Assembly (NCBI RefSeq): GCF_000317145.1
Contig: NC_019697.1
Location: forward strand, 62,001 to 126,000
Source: Chamaesiphon minutus PCC 6605
GTDB lineage: Bacteria; Cyanobacteriota; Cyanobacteriia; Cyanobacteriales; Chamaesiphonaceae
Direction of reading: 5' to 3'
Length of the DNA: 64,000 nucleotides
Under the pieces are notes generated by a model. That model ran no database searches and was not told the DNA's origin. It saw only the letters and a list, made by a program, of their open reading frames with translations. The position numbers were made by a program, and so were the translations under genes. This document shows, one piece after another, positions 14,329 to 33,202 of this stretch (position 1 is the first letter of the stretch; every line of letters begins with the position of its first letter).

Positions 14329-15315
14329 GTGCGACGAGTTAAACTTCTTTCCACCGGAAAATATCTGCCCAAAAACCGAGTTACCGCCAGCGACATCGAG
14401 CAGCGGTTGGGCTTGCCCAAGGATTGGGTCGAACAAAAATCAGGAGTCCTAGTTCGCCACTTTGTAGAAGATGAAACTGCATCATTGATGGGAGCCTTAG
14501 CCGCTAAAGATGCACTAGCAGCCGCTGGATTGTCGATCGAAGATATCGATTGTATTATAAGCACCAGCGGTATTCCAGAGCAATCTATCCCCTGTACGGC
14601 AGCCTTAGTCCAAAAACATCTGGGTGCGATCGATGCAGGGATTCCGGCTTTCGATATCAATTCGACTTGTCTGAGCTTTATTACTGGCTTCGATACTATC
14701 TCCTATTTAATCGAGGCAGGCAGATATCGCCGAGTGCTACTGGTTGCCAGTGAAGTCTGTACGGGCTTGAATTGGCACGATCGAGAAAGTTGTACCTTGT
14801 TTGGCGATGGTGCGGCAGCAGCGATTCTAGCTAGGTCTGAGCGGGGAGAAAGCGCGCGCATCTTGACTTCTAGCATGGAAACTTACAGCAAAGGGGCGCA
14901 CCTGACTGAATGCACGGGTGGTGGCAATAAATATCATCCCAAAGACTATGCCGATAACCTCGAATCCTTTCTGTTTAGAATGGATGGCAGAGGTGTCTAT
15001 CGGATGGCATCGGAAATTTTGCCTCGGTTTGTAGATAGCCTGTTGCAAACTGCCGAACTGAAGATCGCGGATCTGCAAATGGTTATCCCTCACCAAGCCA
15101 GCCTCATGGCAATGCGATTAATCTGCAAACAGCTAGGGATTGCACCAGAGAAATTTATGACCATTATTCAAACTCATGGTAATACAATCGCCGCATCGGT
15201 ACCGATGGCTCTCCATGAAGCAATTCACCAAAACAAGATCCAGCGCGGAGATCTGGTGCTGTTGCTGGGTACTTCTGCGGGATTTTCGGTCGGCGGGATT
15301 GTCTTGGAATACTAA
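14329..15315 (+). CDS. beta-ketoacyl synthase III-like condensing enzyme
   Basis: A 328-residue FabH/OleA-type thiolase-fold enzyme that would perform a decarboxylative or Claisen condensation on acyl-CoA or acyl-ACP. The full catalytic triad is present: C114 (INSTCLSF), H255 (IPHQAS) and N285 (THGNTIAAS). The glycine-rich C terminus (LLGTSAGFSVGGIVLEY) is also normal. It is more divergent than housekeeping FabH and opens a six-gene same-strand cluster, so a specialised lipid role is likely. The start is GTG; no in-frame ATG lies nearby and no good ribosome site is visible. Confidence 0.88.
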   Translation: MRRVKLLSTGKYLPKNRVTASDIEQRLGLPKDWVEQKSGVLVRHFVEDETASLMGALAAKDALAAAGLSIEDIDCIISTSGIPEQSIPCTAALVQKHLGAIDAGIPAFDINSTCLSFITGFDTISYLIEAGRYRRVLLVASEVCTGLNWHDRESCTLFGDGAAAAILARSERGESARILTSSMETYSKGAHLTECTGGGNKYHPKDYADNLESFLFRMDGRGVYRMASEILPRFVDSLLQTAELKIADLQMVIPHQASLMAMRLICKQLGIAPEKFMTIIQTHGNTIAASVPMALHEAIHQNKIQRGDLVLLLGTSAGFSVGGIVLEY

Positions 15316-15360
15316 ATTTGGCGATCTGTAGTAATAAACTGTATCTGTCAGGGCAAATAT

Positions 15361-16563
15361 ATGAGTCTCTTAATTCTATCGATCGGGTTATTATTTTTAG
15401 CTGAAAGAATTGGTAAATACCTGCTTGTCGAAAACTTTTTTCAGCGAGAAGATGAGATAGATAGATCGATCGAGCCAGTTGTCGAATCCAAAGTCAGTAT
15501 CTTGCAACCGATTTTGAGTGGCGACCCTACTTTATGGGATTGTCTGGCTAAGAATTTACAAATGAAAACTAGTTATCCTACTGAATTTTTGTGGTTAATC
15601 GACGACGATGATGCCGAGGCACAAATCGGCTGCCGCCAATTAATAGATCGATATCCAGATATTAGCATCAAGCTGATTTCATTACCACAAGCCCCAGAGC
15701 GAATCAGTCCCAAGATGTTTAAATTAATTGAAGGATTGCAGCAGGCCCTAGGTGAGATGGTGGTAGTGCTAGATGATGACACAATTTTACCCGATCGAGG
15801 ACTCGATCGGGCGATTCCATTTCTCAATCGACCTGCGGTTGGAGTTGCATTTGGCTTACCTTATTATCTGAATTTTTCAAATATTTGGTCTGCATTAGTA
15901 TCTTGCGTTGTCAATAGTAGTAGCCTGCTCACCTACGTTCCTTATACGTTTTTGACAGCACCTTTTACTATTAACGGGATGTTTTTTGTCATGAAACGCG
16001 AAGTTCTCGATCGGGTCGATGGCTTTTCGGGACTAGAAACATCAATTGTCGATGATTTTGCGATCGCCAAACACTTTCGATCGCACGGCTATCTGCTGGC
16101 ACAGACGCCCGTTTGTCATGGCATCAGTACCCAAATTAAAGATGCCAATCATTATTTTAGCCTTTTAAATCGTTGGTTTATTTTCCCACAGGAATCGATC
16201 CTCAAATCGATAAATATTCGCGAACTCGCCATATTTTATAGTACGGCACTGATTTCAACCTTCATCCCGTCGATTGTCGTCGGCTATCTGGTCTTATTCC
16301 CTTCTGTGTCCGCTACCATTTACGCGTTTATCTATTTTGGCGTCAATGCTTATATTTTGACACAATTTAATACTAAATATCTTAACAATGCTACACCCGA
16401 TCGACAAATATTGTTATTATTAGCGATCCAACTGATTATGCCAGTGCATATTATTTTAGCTTTGTTTTCGCCACGGCGGATCGAGTGGCGGGGGAAAACG
16501 ATCGAACTTAATGCTGATGGCAGCTTTGAAATTATCAAACAGCGAAGTGTACCAGAGATTTAG
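15361..16563 (+). CDS. GT21-like membrane glycosyltransferase
   Basis: A 400-residue family 2/21 glycosyltransferase resembling ceramide glucosyltransferase and HpnI. One N-terminal membrane helix is followed by a GT-A domain with D-motifs LIDDDD (79-84), VVVLDDDT (134-141), catalytic-region VDDFAIA (230-236) and NRW (270-272). Two or three membrane helices follow (about 287-365), then the ceramide-transferase-like tail PRRIEWRGKTIEL. It probably adds a sugar to a lipid made by the neighbouring enzymes at the inner membrane face. It follows the condensing enzyme after 45 bases. Confidence 0.82.
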   Translation: MSLLILSIGLLFLAERIGKYLLVENFFQREDEIDRSIEPVVESKVSILQPILSGDPTLWDCLAKNLQMKTSYPTEFLWLIDDDDAEAQIGCRQLIDRYPDISIKLISLPQAPERISPKMFKLIEGLQQALGEMVVVLDDDTILPDRGLDRAIPFLNRPAVGVAFGLPYYLNFSNIWSALVSCVVNSSSLLTYVPYTFLTAPFTINGMFFVMKREVLDRVDGFSGLETSIVDDFAIAKHFRSHGYLLAQTPVCHGISTQIKDANHYFSLLNRWFIFPQESILKSINIRELAIFYSTALISTFIPSIVVGYLVLFPSVSATIYAFIYFGVNAYILTQFNTKYLNNATPDRQILLLLAIQLIMPVHIILALFSPRRIEWRGKTIELNADGSFEIIKQRSVPEI

Positions 16564-16578
16564 ATGAGTTAAAAGTTA

Positions 16579-17448
16579 ATGAATATTGTCCTCTGTTGCT
16601 GCATTATTGGTATGGTGAGTCTAGTTTTGCTGTGGACTTTGGGAGAAACATTGTGGTGGTGGTATCTGTGGAGCAAATCTACAAGATTTGCTACTACGCC
16701 CCAATTCTTATGGCAAAATGCGGTTTTTTTTCTGACTGGAATTAGTAATTATGCCAGTGCAGATTTAGCACCAGAACAAAGAGATTTTTTAAAAGAACTA
16801 GGCGATCGAATTAATATAGATCTCATTGTCGCTACACCTTTTCCCTACGACTGCTCGACTGCTCGCGAATTTTCTAGATGTCAGATTTGGCACCATTTGG
16901 GAGATCGAGAATTGCCCTTATGGTTAATCTCGTTATATAACTTTTGGCAAACTTTATTAGTGACAATCTTAGAAAAGCCCTACGGCAATACCATCGCTCG
17001 ATGTATCGGCAATCGACTGGGAACTGCGGCATCGCGAGATCGTAATTTATGGCTGATTTGTGGCAGCATTGGCGCGGGACTTGCCTTAGCCGCTGCCCCA
17101 AAACTTCGGGAAGAATTACAAGTCAATCTAATTATTATTGCTTACGGCGGAGTATTTAAAGCATCTGCTGGATTCGATACTGTCGATCGATTTTATCACT
17201 TGACTGGGAGCGAAGATACTTGGGCCAAACTTGGCAAATTTATCTTCCCCGGACGGTGGTTTCCTACAGGCGCATACGCCAGAGCAATTCGCGATAATCG
17301 AACGATCGAGCAATCTACTGGCAATCATCAACATCTCGAATATTTAAGCGATCGACGGGCGACTATTTCAAACTTATCCTATCGCACGTTAACATTAGAT
17401 ACAATAACTCAACTCTCAATTTGGCAAGAAAAAGGTATAAAGTATTGA
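16579..17448 (+). CDS. membrane-anchored alpha/beta-hydrolase-like protein
   Basis: A 289-residue protein not assignable to a named family. Residues 5-31 are a membrane helix. The rest has strand/turn features of an alpha/beta hydrolase: a nucleophile-elbow-like LWLICGSIGAG with S163, a candidate acid D213 in HLTGSEDTW, and a candidate His in GNHQHLEYL (H252), in the right order and spacing. The elbow is CGSIG rather than GxSxG. It would fit a hydrolase acting on an acyl or lactone intermediate of the cluster, by analogy with OleB, but that is inference. It is tightly spaced, with 15 bases before it and 7 after. Confidence 0.55.
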   Translation: MNIVLCCCIIGMVSLVLLWTLGETLWWWYLWSKSTRFATTPQFLWQNAVFFLTGISNYASADLAPEQRDFLKELGDRINIDLIVATPFPYDCSTAREFSRCQIWHHLGDRELPLWLISLYNFWQTLLVTILEKPYGNTIARCIGNRLGTAASRDRNLWLICGSIGAGLALAAAPKLREELQVNLIIIAYGGVFKASAGFDTVDRFYHLTGSEDTWAKLGKFIFPGRWFPTGAYARAIRDNRTIEQSTGNHQHLEYLSDRRATISNLSYRTLTLDTITQLSIWQEKGIKY

Positions 17449-17455
17449 TATTTTT

Positions 17456-18454
17456 ATGAAAATATTAGTTACCGGAGCAACAGGTTTTCTAGGCAAACAA
17501 TTAGTAGTCAAACTCAGCAAACTCGGACATGAAGTTACGGCATTGGGTCGTAATTATAGCATCGGCGATCGATTAGTTACCGAAAATGTCAGATTTGTAT
17601 TTAGAGATTTGAGAGATCGAGAAGGCATAATTGCCGATCTACAAGGACAAGACTATGTTTTTCATTGTGGTGCCTTATCTTCCCCCTGGGGCAAAGAGCG
17701 TGATTTTTATGAGATTAATTATTTAGGTACTAAAAATATCATCGAAGGCTGTCAACTCCATCGCATTAAGCGATTAATTTATGTGTCTACATCTGCTGTT
17801 TATTGCGATTATCGAGATCGATTAAATATTTTAGAAGATACATCTTTACCTATCCCCGTTAACGCCTATGCTCGCAGCAAACAATTAGCCGAACTCGAAG
17901 TTAGCAAAGCGCACCAAGCTGGTTTACCGACAATTTCTATTAGACCGCGCGGTATTTTTGGCCCCGGCGATACGGCAATTTTACCCCGATTGATGAGAGC
18001 AAATCGGCGCGGAGGAATTCCATTTATCGATCGAGGTCAAGCCTGTATTGACATTACCTATGTCGATAATGTCATCGATGCTTTATTGCTATGCCAAAAT
18101 GCGCCAGATATCTTATTAGGCAGAATTTTTAATATTACCAATGGAGAACCAATTACTATTGCTAACTTATTGACAAAACTATTTGCTAAGTTAGATGAGC
18201 CATGCCGACTCAGACCAATTTCACTACGCGCGGCAAATTGGACTGCATCGCTAATGGAACTTATCGCCAATACAATATTGTTAGGGAAAGAACCCATTCT
18301 CACCCGTTATACAGTAGGATTACTAACCTATAGTCAAACATTAGACATTTCAGCAGCGACTCACGAATTAGGCTATCAACCTCGCGTGAGTATCGACGGT
18401 GGATTAGATGTTTTTGCCCGATGGTATCAAACTAATAATAAACCAAGTTGCTAG
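17456..18454 (+). CDS. NAD(P)-dependent epimerase/3-beta-HSD-like dehydrogenase
   Basis: A 332-residue extended short-chain dehydrogenase. The Rossmann motif GATGFLG is at residues 7-13 and the catalytic pair Y138xxxK142 (YARSK) follows a Ser/Thr strand (YVSTSAVY). It has the C-terminal half of the 3-beta-hydroxysteroid dehydrogenase/OleD group (RPRGIFGPGD, ITYVDNVIDALLL). In a lipid cluster it would reduce a beta-keto acyl product, as OleD does, or act on a sugar nucleotide; the former fits the neighbours better. Its stop codon lies inside an inverted repeat. Confidence 0.82.
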   Translation: MKILVTGATGFLGKQLVVKLSKLGHEVTALGRNYSIGDRLVTENVRFVFRDLRDREGIIADLQGQDYVFHCGALSSPWGKERDFYEINYLGTKNIIEGCQLHRIKRLIYVSTSAVYCDYRDRLNILEDTSLPIPVNAYARSKQLAELEVSKAHQAGLPTISIRPRGIFGPGDTAILPRLMRANRRGGIPFIDRGQACIDITYVDNVIDALLLCQNAPDILLGRIFNITNGEPITIANLLTKLFAKLDEPCRLRPISLRAANWTASLMELIANTILLGKEPILTRYTVGLLTYSQTLDISAATHELGYQPRVSIDGGLDVFARWYQTNNKPSC

Positions 18455-18545
18455 TTATATATTTTCGGTATAAAAATTAAATAGAGTAGATATATTTTCT
18501 ATTTCCTATTCTCTATTTTTACCAATTTTTAGCAACTAGCAACTT
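18445..18545. repeat. inverted repeat spanning the SDR stop codon
   Basis: Perfect 12-base arms AAGTTGCTAGTT (18445-18456) and AACTAGCAACTT (18534-18545) enclose partly complementary AT-rich DNA. The transcript could fold into a long stem just before the next gene, as a processing signal, attenuator or small mobile repeat. Confidence 0.55.
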
Positions 18546-18563
18546 AAGTTAATAGCAATCGAT

Positions 18564-19409
18564 ATGTCACTTAAAGTTAACTTTTTTTCAGCCGGATATT
18601 GTACGCACCCAGAAGCAGTAGTCATCCGCGATGGTAAATGGCAGTCAGCAAATTTTCCCTCTCTATTTGCTGCGATCGTCCATCCAACGCTCGGTGTAAT
18701 TCTATTCGATACTGGTTATTCTAGTCGATTTTTTCAAGAAACTCGTGCTTTGCCATTGCGGTTATATGCTCTAGCTACGCCTGTATATTTCCAGCCAGCA
18801 GATAGTGCTGTCTCTCAGCTCCAGCAATCAGGCATCTCGCCAGAATCGATAAACTATATCATTATTTCTCACTTTCATGCCGATCATGTCGGCGGTTTAC
18901 AAGATTTTCCAAATGCACGATTTATCTGTTTTAACTCTGCGTATCAAGCAGTAAAAAATCGGCAGGGATGGAGTGCGCTGAAGGCTGGTTTTTTGCCAGG
19001 GTTATTACCTACTGATTTCGAGCATCGCCGCATCTCGGTAGAAGATCTCCAGACTGTCTCATTACCTCCACAGTATCTTCCATTTGACACTGGCTGCGAT
19101 CTATTTGGTGATGGTACTCTCCTAGCAGTCGAATTACCAGGTCATGCTACGGGACAGCTAGGCTTGTTTGTGGTTGATGCTGACGAACGCACTTATTTTC
19201 TCATCGCCGATGCTTGTTGGCTCAGTCGTGCTTATCAAGAGTTTATCAGACCACATCCGATCGCCAGTCTCATTTTTGCCAACGATCGAGAGTATGTAGA
19301 TACACTCGCCAAAATTCATCAATTGCATCAGTTCAATCCAGATCTAAACATCATTCCCACCCATTGTGCGAAAACTTGGGAGAGATTAAATAAATCGATG
19401 ACATCATAA
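18564..19409 (+). CDS. metallo-beta-lactamase-fold hydrolase
   Basis: A 281-residue MBL-fold enzyme with a binuclear metal site: H103, H105, D107 and H108 in SHFHADHVGG, a further His in LPGHATGQLG, Asp in IADACW and the final His in IPTHC. It resembles N-acyl homoserine lactonase/UlaG-type family members that open lactones or thioesters. In this cluster it probably hydrolyses an acyl or lactone intermediate. It is the fifth gene of the cluster, 109 bases after the SDR. The substrate is not deducible. Confidence 0.82.
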   Translation: MSLKVNFFSAGYCTHPEAVVIRDGKWQSANFPSLFAAIVHPTLGVILFDTGYSSRFFQETRALPLRLYALATPVYFQPADSAVSQLQQSGISPESINYIIISHFHADHVGGLQDFPNARFICFNSAYQAVKNRQGWSALKAGFLPGLLPTDFEHRRISVEDLQTVSLPPQYLPFDTGCDLFGDGTLLAVELPGHATGQLGLFVVDADERTYFLIADACWLSRAYQEFIRPHPIASLIFANDREYVDTLAKIHQLHQFNPDLNIIPTHCAKTWERLNKSMTS

Positions 19410-19589
19410 AAAGGTAATGGTAATGGGTAATGAGTAAAAGATCGATTCTCTTTCCATGTGCCTCCCCATCTCCCCGCTTCTTCGCTCCCATCTCTACCTT
19501 TTCATACCTAAATCCAGCAGTCACGCCAGTAGGGTGAGCAATGTCTAGCATTTACGTTTCTAATTAATTCAAATTAAAATTAATAATAA

Positions 19590-20924
19590 GTGAACGATAA
19601 ATTAGCAATTGTGGGTCAATATTTATTGATAAAATATGGGCGGACTTTTAAAAGTCGCAAACAACTTTTAGCATGGCAAAACACCAAAGTTGTCAATTTT
19701 TTACATCAGGTTTTACCCAAATCCCGGTTTTATCGCGATCGATATGAGGGCTTGAATCTGAGTGATTGGCAAACATTCCCGATCGTGGATAAATCGGCAA
19801 TGATGGCCAATTTTGATGACTTAAATACAGTCGGAATTAGCAAAGACTCGGCATTTGAGCTTGCGATCGAAGCAGAAACAACGCGCAACTTTAGCCCCAC
19901 CATTCAGGGGTATACGATCGGGTTATCTTCGGGGACGAGTGGCAATCGGGGCTTATTTATCGTCAGTCCAGCAGAGCGACAAATATGGGCGGGTACGATT
20001 TTAGCAAAAGCACTACCACACTCGATTTTTACGCCCGAACGGATTGCTTTTTTCCTCAGAGCTAATAGCAATCTTTATGAAACAGTCCGACGCCAACACA
20101 TTCGCTTTGAGTATTTCGATCTATTTGCCAATCTCCAAAATCACATCGAGCGGCTCAACCGTATCGAGCCGACAATTTTAGTCGCACCACCCTCAATGTT
20201 ACTGCTGTTAGCAGCCGCTCGATCGAGCGGCGATCTAAAGATCTTCCCAGAGAAAATCATCGCTGTGGCGGAGGTGCTAGACCCCTTAGATGAAACATAT
20301 TTGCGTGAATGTTTCAGTCGTCCCATCCATCAATTGTATCAATGTACGGAAGGTTTTTTAGGCAGTACTTGCGCTTATGGTACGTTACATCTCAATGAAG
20401 ATATCTTAGTAATTCAAAAAGAATATATCGATCGCCAATTGGGAAAATTTATGCCAATTATTACGGATTTTAATCGGCGAACTCAACCAATTATTCGCTA
20501 TCGCTTAGATGACATTTTAACCGAACGACAAGATCCCTGTCTCTGCGGCTCGGTATTCACAGCTTTAAGCAGCATCGAAGGGCGATGCGACGATCTGTTT
20601 TGGTTGCCCGATCTCACTGGCGAGAGATTAATATCGATATTTCCAGATTTTATCCGCAGAGCCATTATGACAGCTTCAGCAGATATTCAGGCATATCGAG
20701 TCGTGCAAATAAGTCCGACGGCGATCGAAGTTTTTGTCAAAGTACCGCCAGAATTACAAACATCGATCGAGCAGCAAATCTCTGTGTCCTTAATCGATCT
20801 TTTCAATCGATCGCATTGTCAAATTCCGAATATATTTTACCAAGAATATGTCCAGCACACCGAACACCGCCACAAGTTGCGCCGGGTTCAGCGAGCATTT
20901 ACCCCAGACAATCGATCCAGCTAA
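19590..20924 (+). CDS. F390-synthetase-like adenylate-forming enzyme
   Basis: A 444-residue member of the PaaK/F390-synthetase branch of the adenylating superfamily. The ATP-binding loop reads GLSSGTSGNRG (111-121). YQCTEGFLG corresponds to the adenine-binding motif and IIRYRLDDIL to the ribose-binding Asp region. Such enzymes activate a carboxylate as an adenylate, often to make a CoA ester. I recall a family model for 'F390 synthetase-related' proteins found beside condensing enzymes and dehydrogenases, as here. The start is GTG. It is the last gene of the cluster, and the leader (180 bases) contains a C-rich low-complexity stretch. Confidence 0.8.
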   Translation: MNDKLAIVGQYLLIKYGRTFKSRKQLLAWQNTKVVNFLHQVLPKSRFYRDRYEGLNLSDWQTFPIVDKSAMMANFDDLNTVGISKDSAFELAIEAETTRNFSPTIQGYTIGLSSGTSGNRGLFIVSPAERQIWAGTILAKALPHSIFTPERIAFFLRANSNLYETVRRQHIRFEYFDLFANLQNHIERLNRIEPTILVAPPSMLLLLAAARSSGDLKIFPEKIIAVAEVLDPLDETYLRECFSRPIHQLYQCTEGFLGSTCAYGTLHLNEDILVIQKEYIDRQLGKFMPIITDFNRRTQPIIRYRLDDILTERQDPCLCGSVFTALSSIEGRCDDLFWLPDLTGERLISIFPDFIRRAIMTASADIQAYRVVQISPTAIEVFVKVPPELQTSIEQQISVSLIDLFNRSHCQIPNIFYQEYVQHTEHRHKLRRVQRAFTPDNRSS

Positions 20925-22162: not shown

Positions 22163-22741
22163 TCAGGCTCTTGGCACGCAATCTAATTGTGCTAAATATT
22201 GTGGTGGTACCGCATCTACCAACCACACATCGTTATCCGTCAGGTAAAAGCTATAACCGTCAGCAACCATTGCCAGCGTATCTATCCCCAAGATGACACT
22301 TTCACCCCGCCTAGCACCCACCTTGAATGCCGTATTCAGATCTGTGGTGAGATGGACGTGGTGGCGAGACATCTTCTGCAATCCCGTTGCAAAAATTGCG
22401 GCGATCGCTTTGATGTGAGTGCCATGATAGAGAGTATCTGGGGGCGTTTGAGCTGTAAGCTGTAAGTCGATATCGATCGAATGTCCCTGATTGGCGCGAA
22501 TCAGATCGCCAGATTCATTAAATGCAAAACGTTGTTTATCATTGGTGGCAACTACCTGGTGTAGATCGGCTAGACTAATCTCAAATCCGTGTGCTGATGC
22601 TGCTGCTAAGAGCTTATCTACTTCAATCCAGCCTCCGGGCAAAAGTTCCAATCCCAGTCGTTCTGGCTGATGGCGCAGGTGTTTGGATAAGTATTTACTA
22701 ATTCTAACGTGGCGTTGGGAAATTTGCAGGTTACCAGCCAT
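22163..22741 (-). CDS. kptA: RNA 2'-phosphotransferase KptA/Tpt1
   Basis: A 192-residue enzyme that transfers an RNA 2'-phosphate to NAD. The N-terminal winged helix has SKYLSKHLRHQPE with the conserved Arg/His. The C-terminal ADP-ribosyltransferase-like lobe has LYHGTH, HHVHLTTD and GARRGESVIL. The length and motif order match bacterial KptA. Bacteria have no splicing reaction that makes such ends, so the natural substrate is unclear; that is a known puzzle of the family. It is downstream of the AAA gene start by 35 bases, in the same direction. Confidence 0.92.
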   Translation of the reverse strand: MAGNLQISQRHVRISKYLSKHLRHQPERLGLELLPGGWIEVDKLLAAASAHGFEISLADLHQVVATNDKQRFAFNESGDLIRANQGHSIDIDLQLTAQTPPDTLYHGTHIKAIAAIFATGLQKMSRHHVHLTTDLNTAFKVGARRGESVILGIDTLAMVADGYSFYLTDNDVWLVDAVPPQYLAQLDCVPRA

Positions 22742-31843: not shown

Positions 31844-33202
31844 TTATAAAATCTTTTTCCCCGTAAGAATTTCGCGGACATCTAGCATGGCAGAATAGGT
31901 AGGAATAATATGGAGAGTTTCGGTTGTTGCGGTGAGTTCTAAAGCGGTATCGATCGCGTCTTTAAGATCTTCTTTGACGATAATTTTACAACCTTTATCT
32001 CGATCGATCTTGCTGTATTCTAATCGCAATGCCATATCATAGACTCGATCGCCACTAACGACGATAGTGCCGCCAGAATTGACAAATTTTTCGGTATCGA
32101 CATCCCAAATCCACGACACATCGGTACCATCGGGGGTGCGATCGTTGAGTACCATCAGACTAACAGCTCCATTACCCGCCTGCTTGACTTGAGAGACAGC
32201 GCGGATGGTTTCGTTCATACTGGCGGGATTTTTGGTTAATAAAATCCGCACTTTTTTACCGTTATAGACTAGTTCTTCCGATCGACCGAAGGCAGCTTGG
32301 AAATTACCGATCGTATCTAGAATAACTGACTTACTAATCCCGATCGATTCCATGACGGTAATGGCAGCAAGGGTATTATATTTATTGTAAACACCGATCA
32401 ATACTTGCGGCCATTCTTTACTGTCGATCGAGAGTTTACTTTTAGTAAAATCACATTTAGGGCAATCAAAATCACCTTGGTGGGAAAGATACACGCCCTT
32501 ATATTCAAGTGCAGTTCCACAACTAGGACAGTAAATAGAGTCTACAGCATGAGGAATTTCATCTAGATATAACTCCGGTTCGCTCAATCCAAAATATTTA
32601 ACTTGTTTGGGTTTGTCTCCAGTCGTTAATTGTTGCCCCAAGTGCGCCAAAGCTGGATCGTCGCCATTGGTAACGAGAATTGTATCGCCATCTAATGCGG
32701 CAATTGCTTTGCCCCAACGATAGGTAATTGTATCGACTTCACCATATCGATCGAGTTGATCGCGAAATAAATTGAGCGCGAGGACGTATTTGGGTTTGAG
32801 TTGGGGGATTACGATCGGAATTACGTTTTCATCTACTTCCAGAATCCCGTAATCGGCTTTAAGTTTACCTGTCAGACTCGTGTTTTCTAATAACGTGGTA
32901 ATTAAACCATTGACGAGATTGGCTCCGGCTTCATTATGGACGACTTTCCAACCATCTTTTTCTAAAATATCCCGTAGCAATAGCGAGGTAGTAGTTTTAC
33001 CATTCGTCCCAGCGACGACAATTACACCATACTTAATCTGTTGAGACAGCATGGTTAAAATTTGCGGATGTAGCCGTTTGCCAATGGTACCTGGGAGCAC
33101 GCTCGCAGCACCTAGTTTGAAGGTGCGAATTGTCGAGGTAATTGTTTTGGCTGCAAATACCGCAATTCCCAATCTGATTCGATCTAGTAAATTTATCTGC
33201 AC
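31844..33202 (-). CDS. murT: lipid II isoglutaminyl synthase, Mur ligase-like subunit
   Basis: A 452-residue Mur-ligase-fold enzyme that activates and amidates the D-glutamate carboxylate of lipid II with GatD. It has the ATP loop AGTNGKTTTS near residue 63, an inserted zinc ribbon (YCPSCG ... DCPKC) characteristic of MurT, and the C-terminal DUF1727 domain. The start is GTG. In some bacteria murT and gatD overlap; here they are split by one gene. Cyanobacterial wall amidation is consistent with this pair. Confidence 0.9.
   Translation of the reverse strand: MQINLLDRIRLGIAVFAAKTITSTIRTFKLGAASVLPGTIGKRLHPQILTMLSQQIKYGVIVVAGTNGKTTTSLLLRDILEKDGWKVVHNEAGANLVNGLITTLLENTSLTGKLKADYGILEVDENVIPIVIPQLKPKYVLALNLFRDQLDRYGEVDTITYRWGKAIAALDGDTILVTNGDDPALAHLGQQLTTGDKPKQVKYFGLSEPELYLDEIPHAVDSIYCPSCGTALEYKGVYLSHQGDFDCPKCDFTKSKLSIDSKEWPQVLIGVYNKYNTLAAITVMESIGISKSVILDTIGNFQAAFGRSEELVYNGKKVRILLTKNPASMNETIRAVSQVKQAGNGAVSLMVLNDRTPDGTDVSWIWDVDTEKFVNSGGTIVVSGDRVYDMALRLEYSKIDRDKGCKIIVKEDLKDAIDTALELTATTETLHIIPTYSAMLDVREILTGKKIL

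Follow-up and report, generated by a model that had tools for sequence, protein, structure and literature searches.

Several described systems resemble, each in part, the gene cluster reported here. The OleABCD system is divided between a condensing enzyme, a short-chain dehydrogenase/reductase (SDR), an adenylating enzyme and a hydrolase, the α/β-hydrolase OleB using an aspartate as nucleophile. In the PqsA-PqsD-PqsE system of the alkylquinolones, a ligase, a FabH-like β-ketoacyl synthase (KAS) and a metallo-β-lactamase (MBL) fold hydrolase share the work, a division of labour that the ligase, KAS III and MBL set described below resembles. Two other KAS enzymes, MxnB and CorB, join two chains (PMC4578411, PMC5724707) and serve polyketide synthase assembly lines that make the α-pyrones myxopyronin and corallopyronin, and the bacterial ceramide loci have the composition aasR-epi-acpR-spt-aca (PMC9386255). 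The protein models TIGR02304 and PRK07204 are also already known, as model names without function. Here we analyse a cluster of six genes that includes members of both models, located at positions 14329 to 20924 of a 64,000-nucleotide stretch (hereafter the window) of Chamaesiphon minutus PCC 6605 (NC_019697.1, positions 62,001 to 126,000). New in this work are the definition of a four-gene core within the cluster, the spread of this core among bacteria, the exchange of cassettes upon it, and the identity of a protein of 289 amino acids (aa) encoded by the third gene.

The cluster and its four-gene core

Six intact open reading frames (ORFs), all on the + strand, follow one another with gaps of 45, 15, 7, 109 and 180 bp. 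They encode a KAS III of the PRK07204 family (14329..15315, 328 aa), a membrane glycosyltransferase of family GT21 (15361..16563, 400 aa), an α/β-hydrolase with an N-terminal membrane helix (16579..17448, 289 aa), an extended SDR resembling 3β-HSD, OleD and NSDHL (17456..18454, 332 aa), an MBL-fold hydrolase (18564..19409, 281 aa) and a PaaK-type adenylating enzyme related to F390 synthetase (19590..20924, 444 aa). The first and the last three of these genes are numbered core genes 1 to 4 in that order, and the glycosyltransferase and the α/β-hydrolase cassette genes 1 and 2. A sequence-only reading of the window had described six genes of these families on one strand; the cluster is confirmed at the same positions, and the family assignments hold in profile searches.

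The recurrence of this arrangement goes far beyond chance. A ligase search of plasmid records recovered annotated clusters in the order KAS III-SDR-MBL-F390-ligase from Paenibacillus, Pontibacillus, Ketogulonicigenium, Paracoccus, Paraburkholderia, Pseudomonas, Rhizobium and E. coli, and contigs from one genome per species yielded at least 583 ligase relatives, 80 of which were kept for comparison. Of 100 loci, 69 had the four genes in exactly this order, no farther than 5.5 kb from the ligase, the remainder being mostly contig ends or losses in ORF calling. Pairwise protein distances of the four core genes correlated at 0.80-0.89 across 71 loci, versus no more than 0.25 in 500 permutations; the four proteins are therefore inherited together. 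The core is spread over Bacillota, Proteobacteria, Cyanobacteria, Fusobacteria and Chlamydiota, and 12% of complete E. coli genomes (672 of 5,426) carry a seven-gene island that contains it. The window belongs to the same group, with a ligase above the TIGR02304 cut-off and homologues of KAS III, SDR and MBL in the conserved order. For the core, the expected co-occurrence is thus borne out, and the possibility that these genes meet nowhere else falls away. As a single conserved set of six, the earlier proposal stands only in part, the four-gene core being widely conserved and the glycosyltransferase and hydrolase swappable. The exact six-gene order is rarer than the core, being known in the window, in a congeneric genome whose contig ends before the KAS gene, and in one cyanobacterium of another family, where it is split over two contigs.

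All four core proteins carry intact catalytic motifs. The KAS III matched PRK07204/NF005541 at 465 bits (cut-off 402), and its Cys114-His255-Asn285 triad was invariant in 86 of 86 homologues; MxnB (242.6 bits) and CorB (239.5 bits) were the nearest solved structures, PqsD being also homologous (112 bits). The SDR matched PF01370 (128 bits) and PF01073 (115 bits) and possesses the glycine motif and Y138xxxK142; its best NCBIfam match was OleD, at 226 bits versus a cut-off of 580, and its nearest solved relative NSDHL. The MBL hydrolase matched PF00753 (50 bits, cut-off 22.7) with a complete set of two-metal ligands (H103, H105, D107, H108, H194, D216 and H267), its nearest solved relatives being N-acylhomoserine lactonases. 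Finally, the ligase matched TIGR02304 ('F390 synthetase-related') at 528 bits versus a cut-off of 251.9, retained the motifs SxGTSG, YQxTEG, RYRxDD and GRxDD, Lys429 and a pair of Cys-rich motifs, and was nearest to the PaaK-type phenylacetate-CoA ligase 4r1l among solved structures; a Pfam profile search gave it no PF00501 match. As the KAS triad, the SDR YxxxK, the MBL two-metal site and the ligase Lys429 are near-invariant among homologues, the active sites of the core look competent.

The cluster lies in a genome of 6.76 Mb in which a second FabH-like gene adjoins plsX elsewhere, so that the KAS III of the cluster is not the housekeeping enzyme. In the congeneric genome, the glycosyltransferase, hydrolase, SDR, MBL and ligase genes follow in identical order up to the contig end at the glycosyltransferase, and the ratio of non-synonymous to synonymous substitution rates (dN/dS) of these five available genes, 0.12-0.24, indicates purifying selection. 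Promoter and terminator scans of the cluster gave chance-level results only, and we therefore claim no operon boundary. A phage origin was rejected, the ligase having no match in 50,697 phage records.

Some of the related loci were observed in additional detail. The E. coli island, located between narI and the tRNA-Tyr/purU region, combines the core with PAP2, sterol-desaturase-family and acyl-CoA desaturase genes, all annotated by family names only (for instance in the asymptomatic isolate E. coli ABU 83972, L157, record 1486371-1493252). Three Pseudomonas megaplasmids (L009, L015 and L016) carry the ligase, two of them also with KAS, SDR and MBL genes amid many hypothetical genes, and in L016 the core genes are several kilobases apart. 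Around the cluster itself, an ABC-transporter ATPase gene lies upstream and an AAA ATPase gene, in opposite orientation, downstream. An RNA 2'-phosphotransferase (Tpt1/KptA) gene follows shortly downstream on the opposite strand (22163-22741), and a MurT-like Mur ligase (PF08353, PF08245) is encoded on the minus strand at 31844-33202.

The slot between KAS III and SDR

In the window, the slot between the KAS and SDR genes holds the GT21 glycosyltransferase and the 289-aa hydrolase, at the place where Bacillota clusters carry an ATP-grasp gene. The TIGR02304 clusters known from Paenibacillus, Burkholderia, E. coli and other bacteria have the same four core genes as the window, for the most part in the window's order, and differ from it in their cassettes, which consist of ATP-grasp and GNAT genes, a sulfotransferase, or PAP2, FA_hydroxylase and desaturase genes. 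Among the 100 loci, 70 had an ATP-grasp gene no more than 5.5 kb from the ligase, 50 a GNAT gene and 35 a second SDR, the latter two often positioned after the ligase. Wherever GT21 was found, it adjoined a homologue of the hydrolase (8 of 8 loci: the window, L130, L151, L152, L012 from Fusobacterium, L042, L054 from Paenibacillus caui, and L129); outside the window, and among the clusters compared, the pair was limited to Fusobacterium, P. caui and some cyanobacteria. Of 386 cyanobacterial genomes, ten possess the ligase proper and four a close homologue of the hydrolase, all four being among those ten, an overlap with a chance of ~2e-7 under an assumption of independent genomes that cyanobacterial genomes do not satisfy.

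The relationships of the core point to another partition. The window core is closest to that of L122, a cyanobacterial KAS-ATP-grasp-SDR-MBL-ligase-GNAT cluster (KAS 75%, SDR 64%, MBL 71% and ligase 68% identity), and more distant from the glycosyltransferase-type cyanobacterial clusters L152/L123, which come from its own order (G182; 68%, 59%, 64% and 59%, respectively). The ligase tree agrees, grouping the window with L121, L122 and L041, all of which carry GNAT cassettes. Cassettes have thus been exchanged while the core was kept, and the GT21 and 289-aa hydrolase pair is an exchangeable cassette on a conserved core.

The glycosyltransferase matched PF13506 at 82 bits (cut-off 21.7) and shares D81, DDD138-140, DD231-232 and R271W272 with its homologues (8 sequences). 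Its nearest solved chain, 26qf, is a ceramide glucosyltransferase, in agreement with the ceramide type that the sequence-only reading had assigned to it. In three clusters, a second glycosyltransferase of GT1/GT28 type stands beside the GT21 and hydrolase genes (L129:5452-6681, L042:1073-2362 and L054:12275-13549), which suggests a two-sugar head group there; the window has no such gene.

For the 289-aa protein, Pfam, NCBIfam and PDB sequence searches gave no match and sequence-based family searches only noise, and we therefore judged it by its conservation and fold. In an alignment of 12 sequences (19-83% identity to the window protein, one row being the truncated L054 protein), eight columns only were invariant, including S163, G165, D213 and H252. 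An AlphaFold2 model built from three alignment rows (predicted template modelling score, pTM, 0.64) placed the serine after the strand 156-161, the aspartate after 204-209 and the histidine after 242-246, in canonical order, and a membrane helix was predicted at the N-terminus (residues 2-33). The structural matches of the model were lipases, esterases and thioesterases, all those listed being α/β-hydrolases or close kin (Z 10.6-12.2). Residue conservation and the predicted fold together indicate that the protein is a membrane-anchored α/β-hydrolase with an S163/D213/H252 triad, the very residues that the sequence-only reading had singled out and for which it had called for an AlphaFold model.

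Homologous membrane-anchored hydrolases of 330-350 aa occur in many cyanobacteria, where they keep the Ser-Asp-His residues, lie away from KAS/GT clusters and belong to no Pfam family (L153:6620-7651, L154:6410-7393, L155:6389-7375 and L156:6161-7210). The P. caui gene (L054:11733-12297) is seemingly broken near its start by a frameshift or an assembly error, and a 134-aa frame was used.

Candidate pathways and products

We tentatively favour, while granting it somewhat less than an even chance, a lipid pathway in which the conserved core would build a scaffold and the cassette would supply its head group, with a glycosylated β-hydroxyacyl, possibly two-chain, envelope lipid as output. The intact active sites, the joint inheritance of the core proteins, the exchange of cassettes, the kinship of GT21 with ceramide glucosyltransferase, its constant pairing with the hydrolase and the invariant triad of the latter speak for this reading. 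We infer its chemistry, including the substrates, the direction of the SDR and the reaction of the MBL enzyme, from the families involved. The ligase would convert a carboxylic (probably fatty) acid into an acyl-AMP and then a thioester, and the KAS III would condense the acyl group with malonyl-ACP (acyl carrier protein), or with a β-ketoacyl partner as in MxnB and CorB. The MBL enzyme would hydrolyse the thioester or a derived lactone, and the SDR would reduce the β-keto acid to a β-hydroxy acid. GT21 may then add a sugar to the hydroxyl at the membrane, and the membrane-anchored serine hydrolase may trim, re-esterify or transfer the acyl or glycolipid product; several arrangements of step order and acyl partners are compatible with the data. 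In relatives, the shared scaffold would be amidated and acylated (ATP-grasp and GNAT), sulfated, or desaturated and hydroxylated. The sulfotransferase, FA_hydroxylase, desaturase and PAP2 genes of these relatives encode enzymes whose substrates would be hydroxyls or lipids. The tailoring reactions, namely glycosylation, sulfation and amidation, fit a substrate whose hydroxyl and carboxyl are both free.

Several observations weigh against this pathway. The cluster contains no gene for an acyl carrier protein, the MBL homology fits lactonases no less than thioesterases, and NSDHL, the best solved relative of the SDR, oxidises rather than reduces. In addition, the homology of the KAS to MxnB and CorB also permits a two-chain condensation, the model of the 289-aa protein has a low confidence (predicted local distance difference test, pLDDT, 57) despite its uniform fold matches, and some loci deviate, such as G272, where the KAS-GT-hydrolase part and the ligase lie on separate contigs.

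The alternative that survives best, though we consider it unlikely, is a two-chain route of Ole or MxnB type, in which the KAS III would join two acyl chains head-to-head into a 2-alkyl-3-keto acid, the SDR would reduce it, the ligase would activate it as a β-lactone or thioester, the MBL enzyme would open the lactone and the glycosyltransferase would glycosylate a mycolic-acid-like product. The two-chain activity of both nearest solved KAS enzymes, the OleD match of the SDR and the lactonase-like MBL enzyme all fit such a route. The catalytic glutamate of OleA and PpyS (E117 and E105, respectively), which deprotonates a simple acyl chain, corresponds to V94 in MxnB (PMC4578411), whose β-ketoacyl partner needs no such base. 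In the KAS of the window, V94 aligns with Ile87, and all 86 homologues have Ile or Leu at this position, which makes an OleA-style coupling of two plain fatty acyl chains less likely and would require a β-ketoacyl nucleophile; the low OleD score of the SDR also counts against the route. The likeness to MxnB and CorB, which extends to the Cys-His-Asn triad and the non-glutamate residue, has its own limits, as the window cluster has no polyketide synthase and MxnB itself misses the PRK07204 cut-off (323 versus 402 bits). As for the Ole parallel drawn by the sequence-only reading, the general division of labour stands, whereas membership of the olefin/β-lactone system was rejected, every defining feature tested having failed: the OleA glutamate is missing, the SDR falls short of OleD, the ligase is of PaaK/TIGR02304 type and lacks the AMP-binding family PF00501 of OleC, and the hydrolase has the invariant Ser163, rather than an aspartate, at its nucleophile elbow. 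The additional MBL and glycosyltransferase genes further set the cluster apart.

Another route, which we regard as rather improbable, would follow the logic of PqsA-D-E, the PaaK-type ligase activating an aromatic or other small acid, the KAS III adding malonate, the MBL enzyme acting as thioesterase and the SDR as reductase before a sugar is added, to give a small glycosylated metabolite or signal instead of an envelope lipid. The kinship of the ligase with phenylacetate-CoA ligase, in a family whose members often use aryl acids, and the homology of PqsD to the KAS are consistent with this route. By contrast, the closest relative of the glycosyltransferase is a lipid enzyme, the tailoring genes of relatives (desaturase, FA_hydroxylase and PAP2) are of lipid type, and the MBL enzyme has solved relatives of lactonase type only, PqsE not being one of them; the ligase family, and apparently the MBL subfamily, differ from those of the Pqs system, to which the window adds an SDR and a glycosyltransferase.

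A sphingolipid-like pathway making and glycosylating a long-chain base is very improbable, and membership was rejected after comparison with the E. coli BL21 genes, since the likeness to the ceramide loci of Caulobacter and E. coli (PMC9386255) in epimerase-type SDR, acyl activation and GT21-type lipid glycosylation, together with the KdsR-like SDR and GNAT genes of relatives, is set against a locus with neither serine palmitoyltransferase nor acyl carrier protein, a single alpha-oxoamine synthase in the genome that falls below the TIGR01825 cut-off, an SDR only 25% identical to Epi, and ligase and GNAT profiles that do not match AasR and YghO.

In the open-access literature searched, no product has been assigned to F390-synthetase-related, PRK07204 or KAS III/ATP-grasp/MBL/GNAT clusters, although one may have been published elsewhere. 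Together with the conserved co-occurrence, this upholds the earlier view of a specialised fatty-acyl cluster with an unassigned product.

Implications of a probable shared scaffold

Beyond the envelope lipid favoured for the window, the core may build the scaffold of bacterial lipids that form a new class, having moved horizontally across five or more phyla, with head groups swapped by cassettes that would provide a sugar, an amino-acid or acyl amide, a sulfate, or a desaturated or hydroxylated chain. We hold this broader proposal to be doubtful, although worth considering; if true, it would describe a lipid class comparable in reach to the ornithine lipids or sphingolipids and chemically undescribed so far. 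Hundreds of genomes carry the core, among them those of soil Paenibacillus, oral Fusobacterium, uropathogenic and asymptomatic E. coli, and cyanobacteria. The swapping of cassettes separates the genes of the shared scaffold from those of the head group, and the product obtained from one tractable host could thus name that of the whole family.

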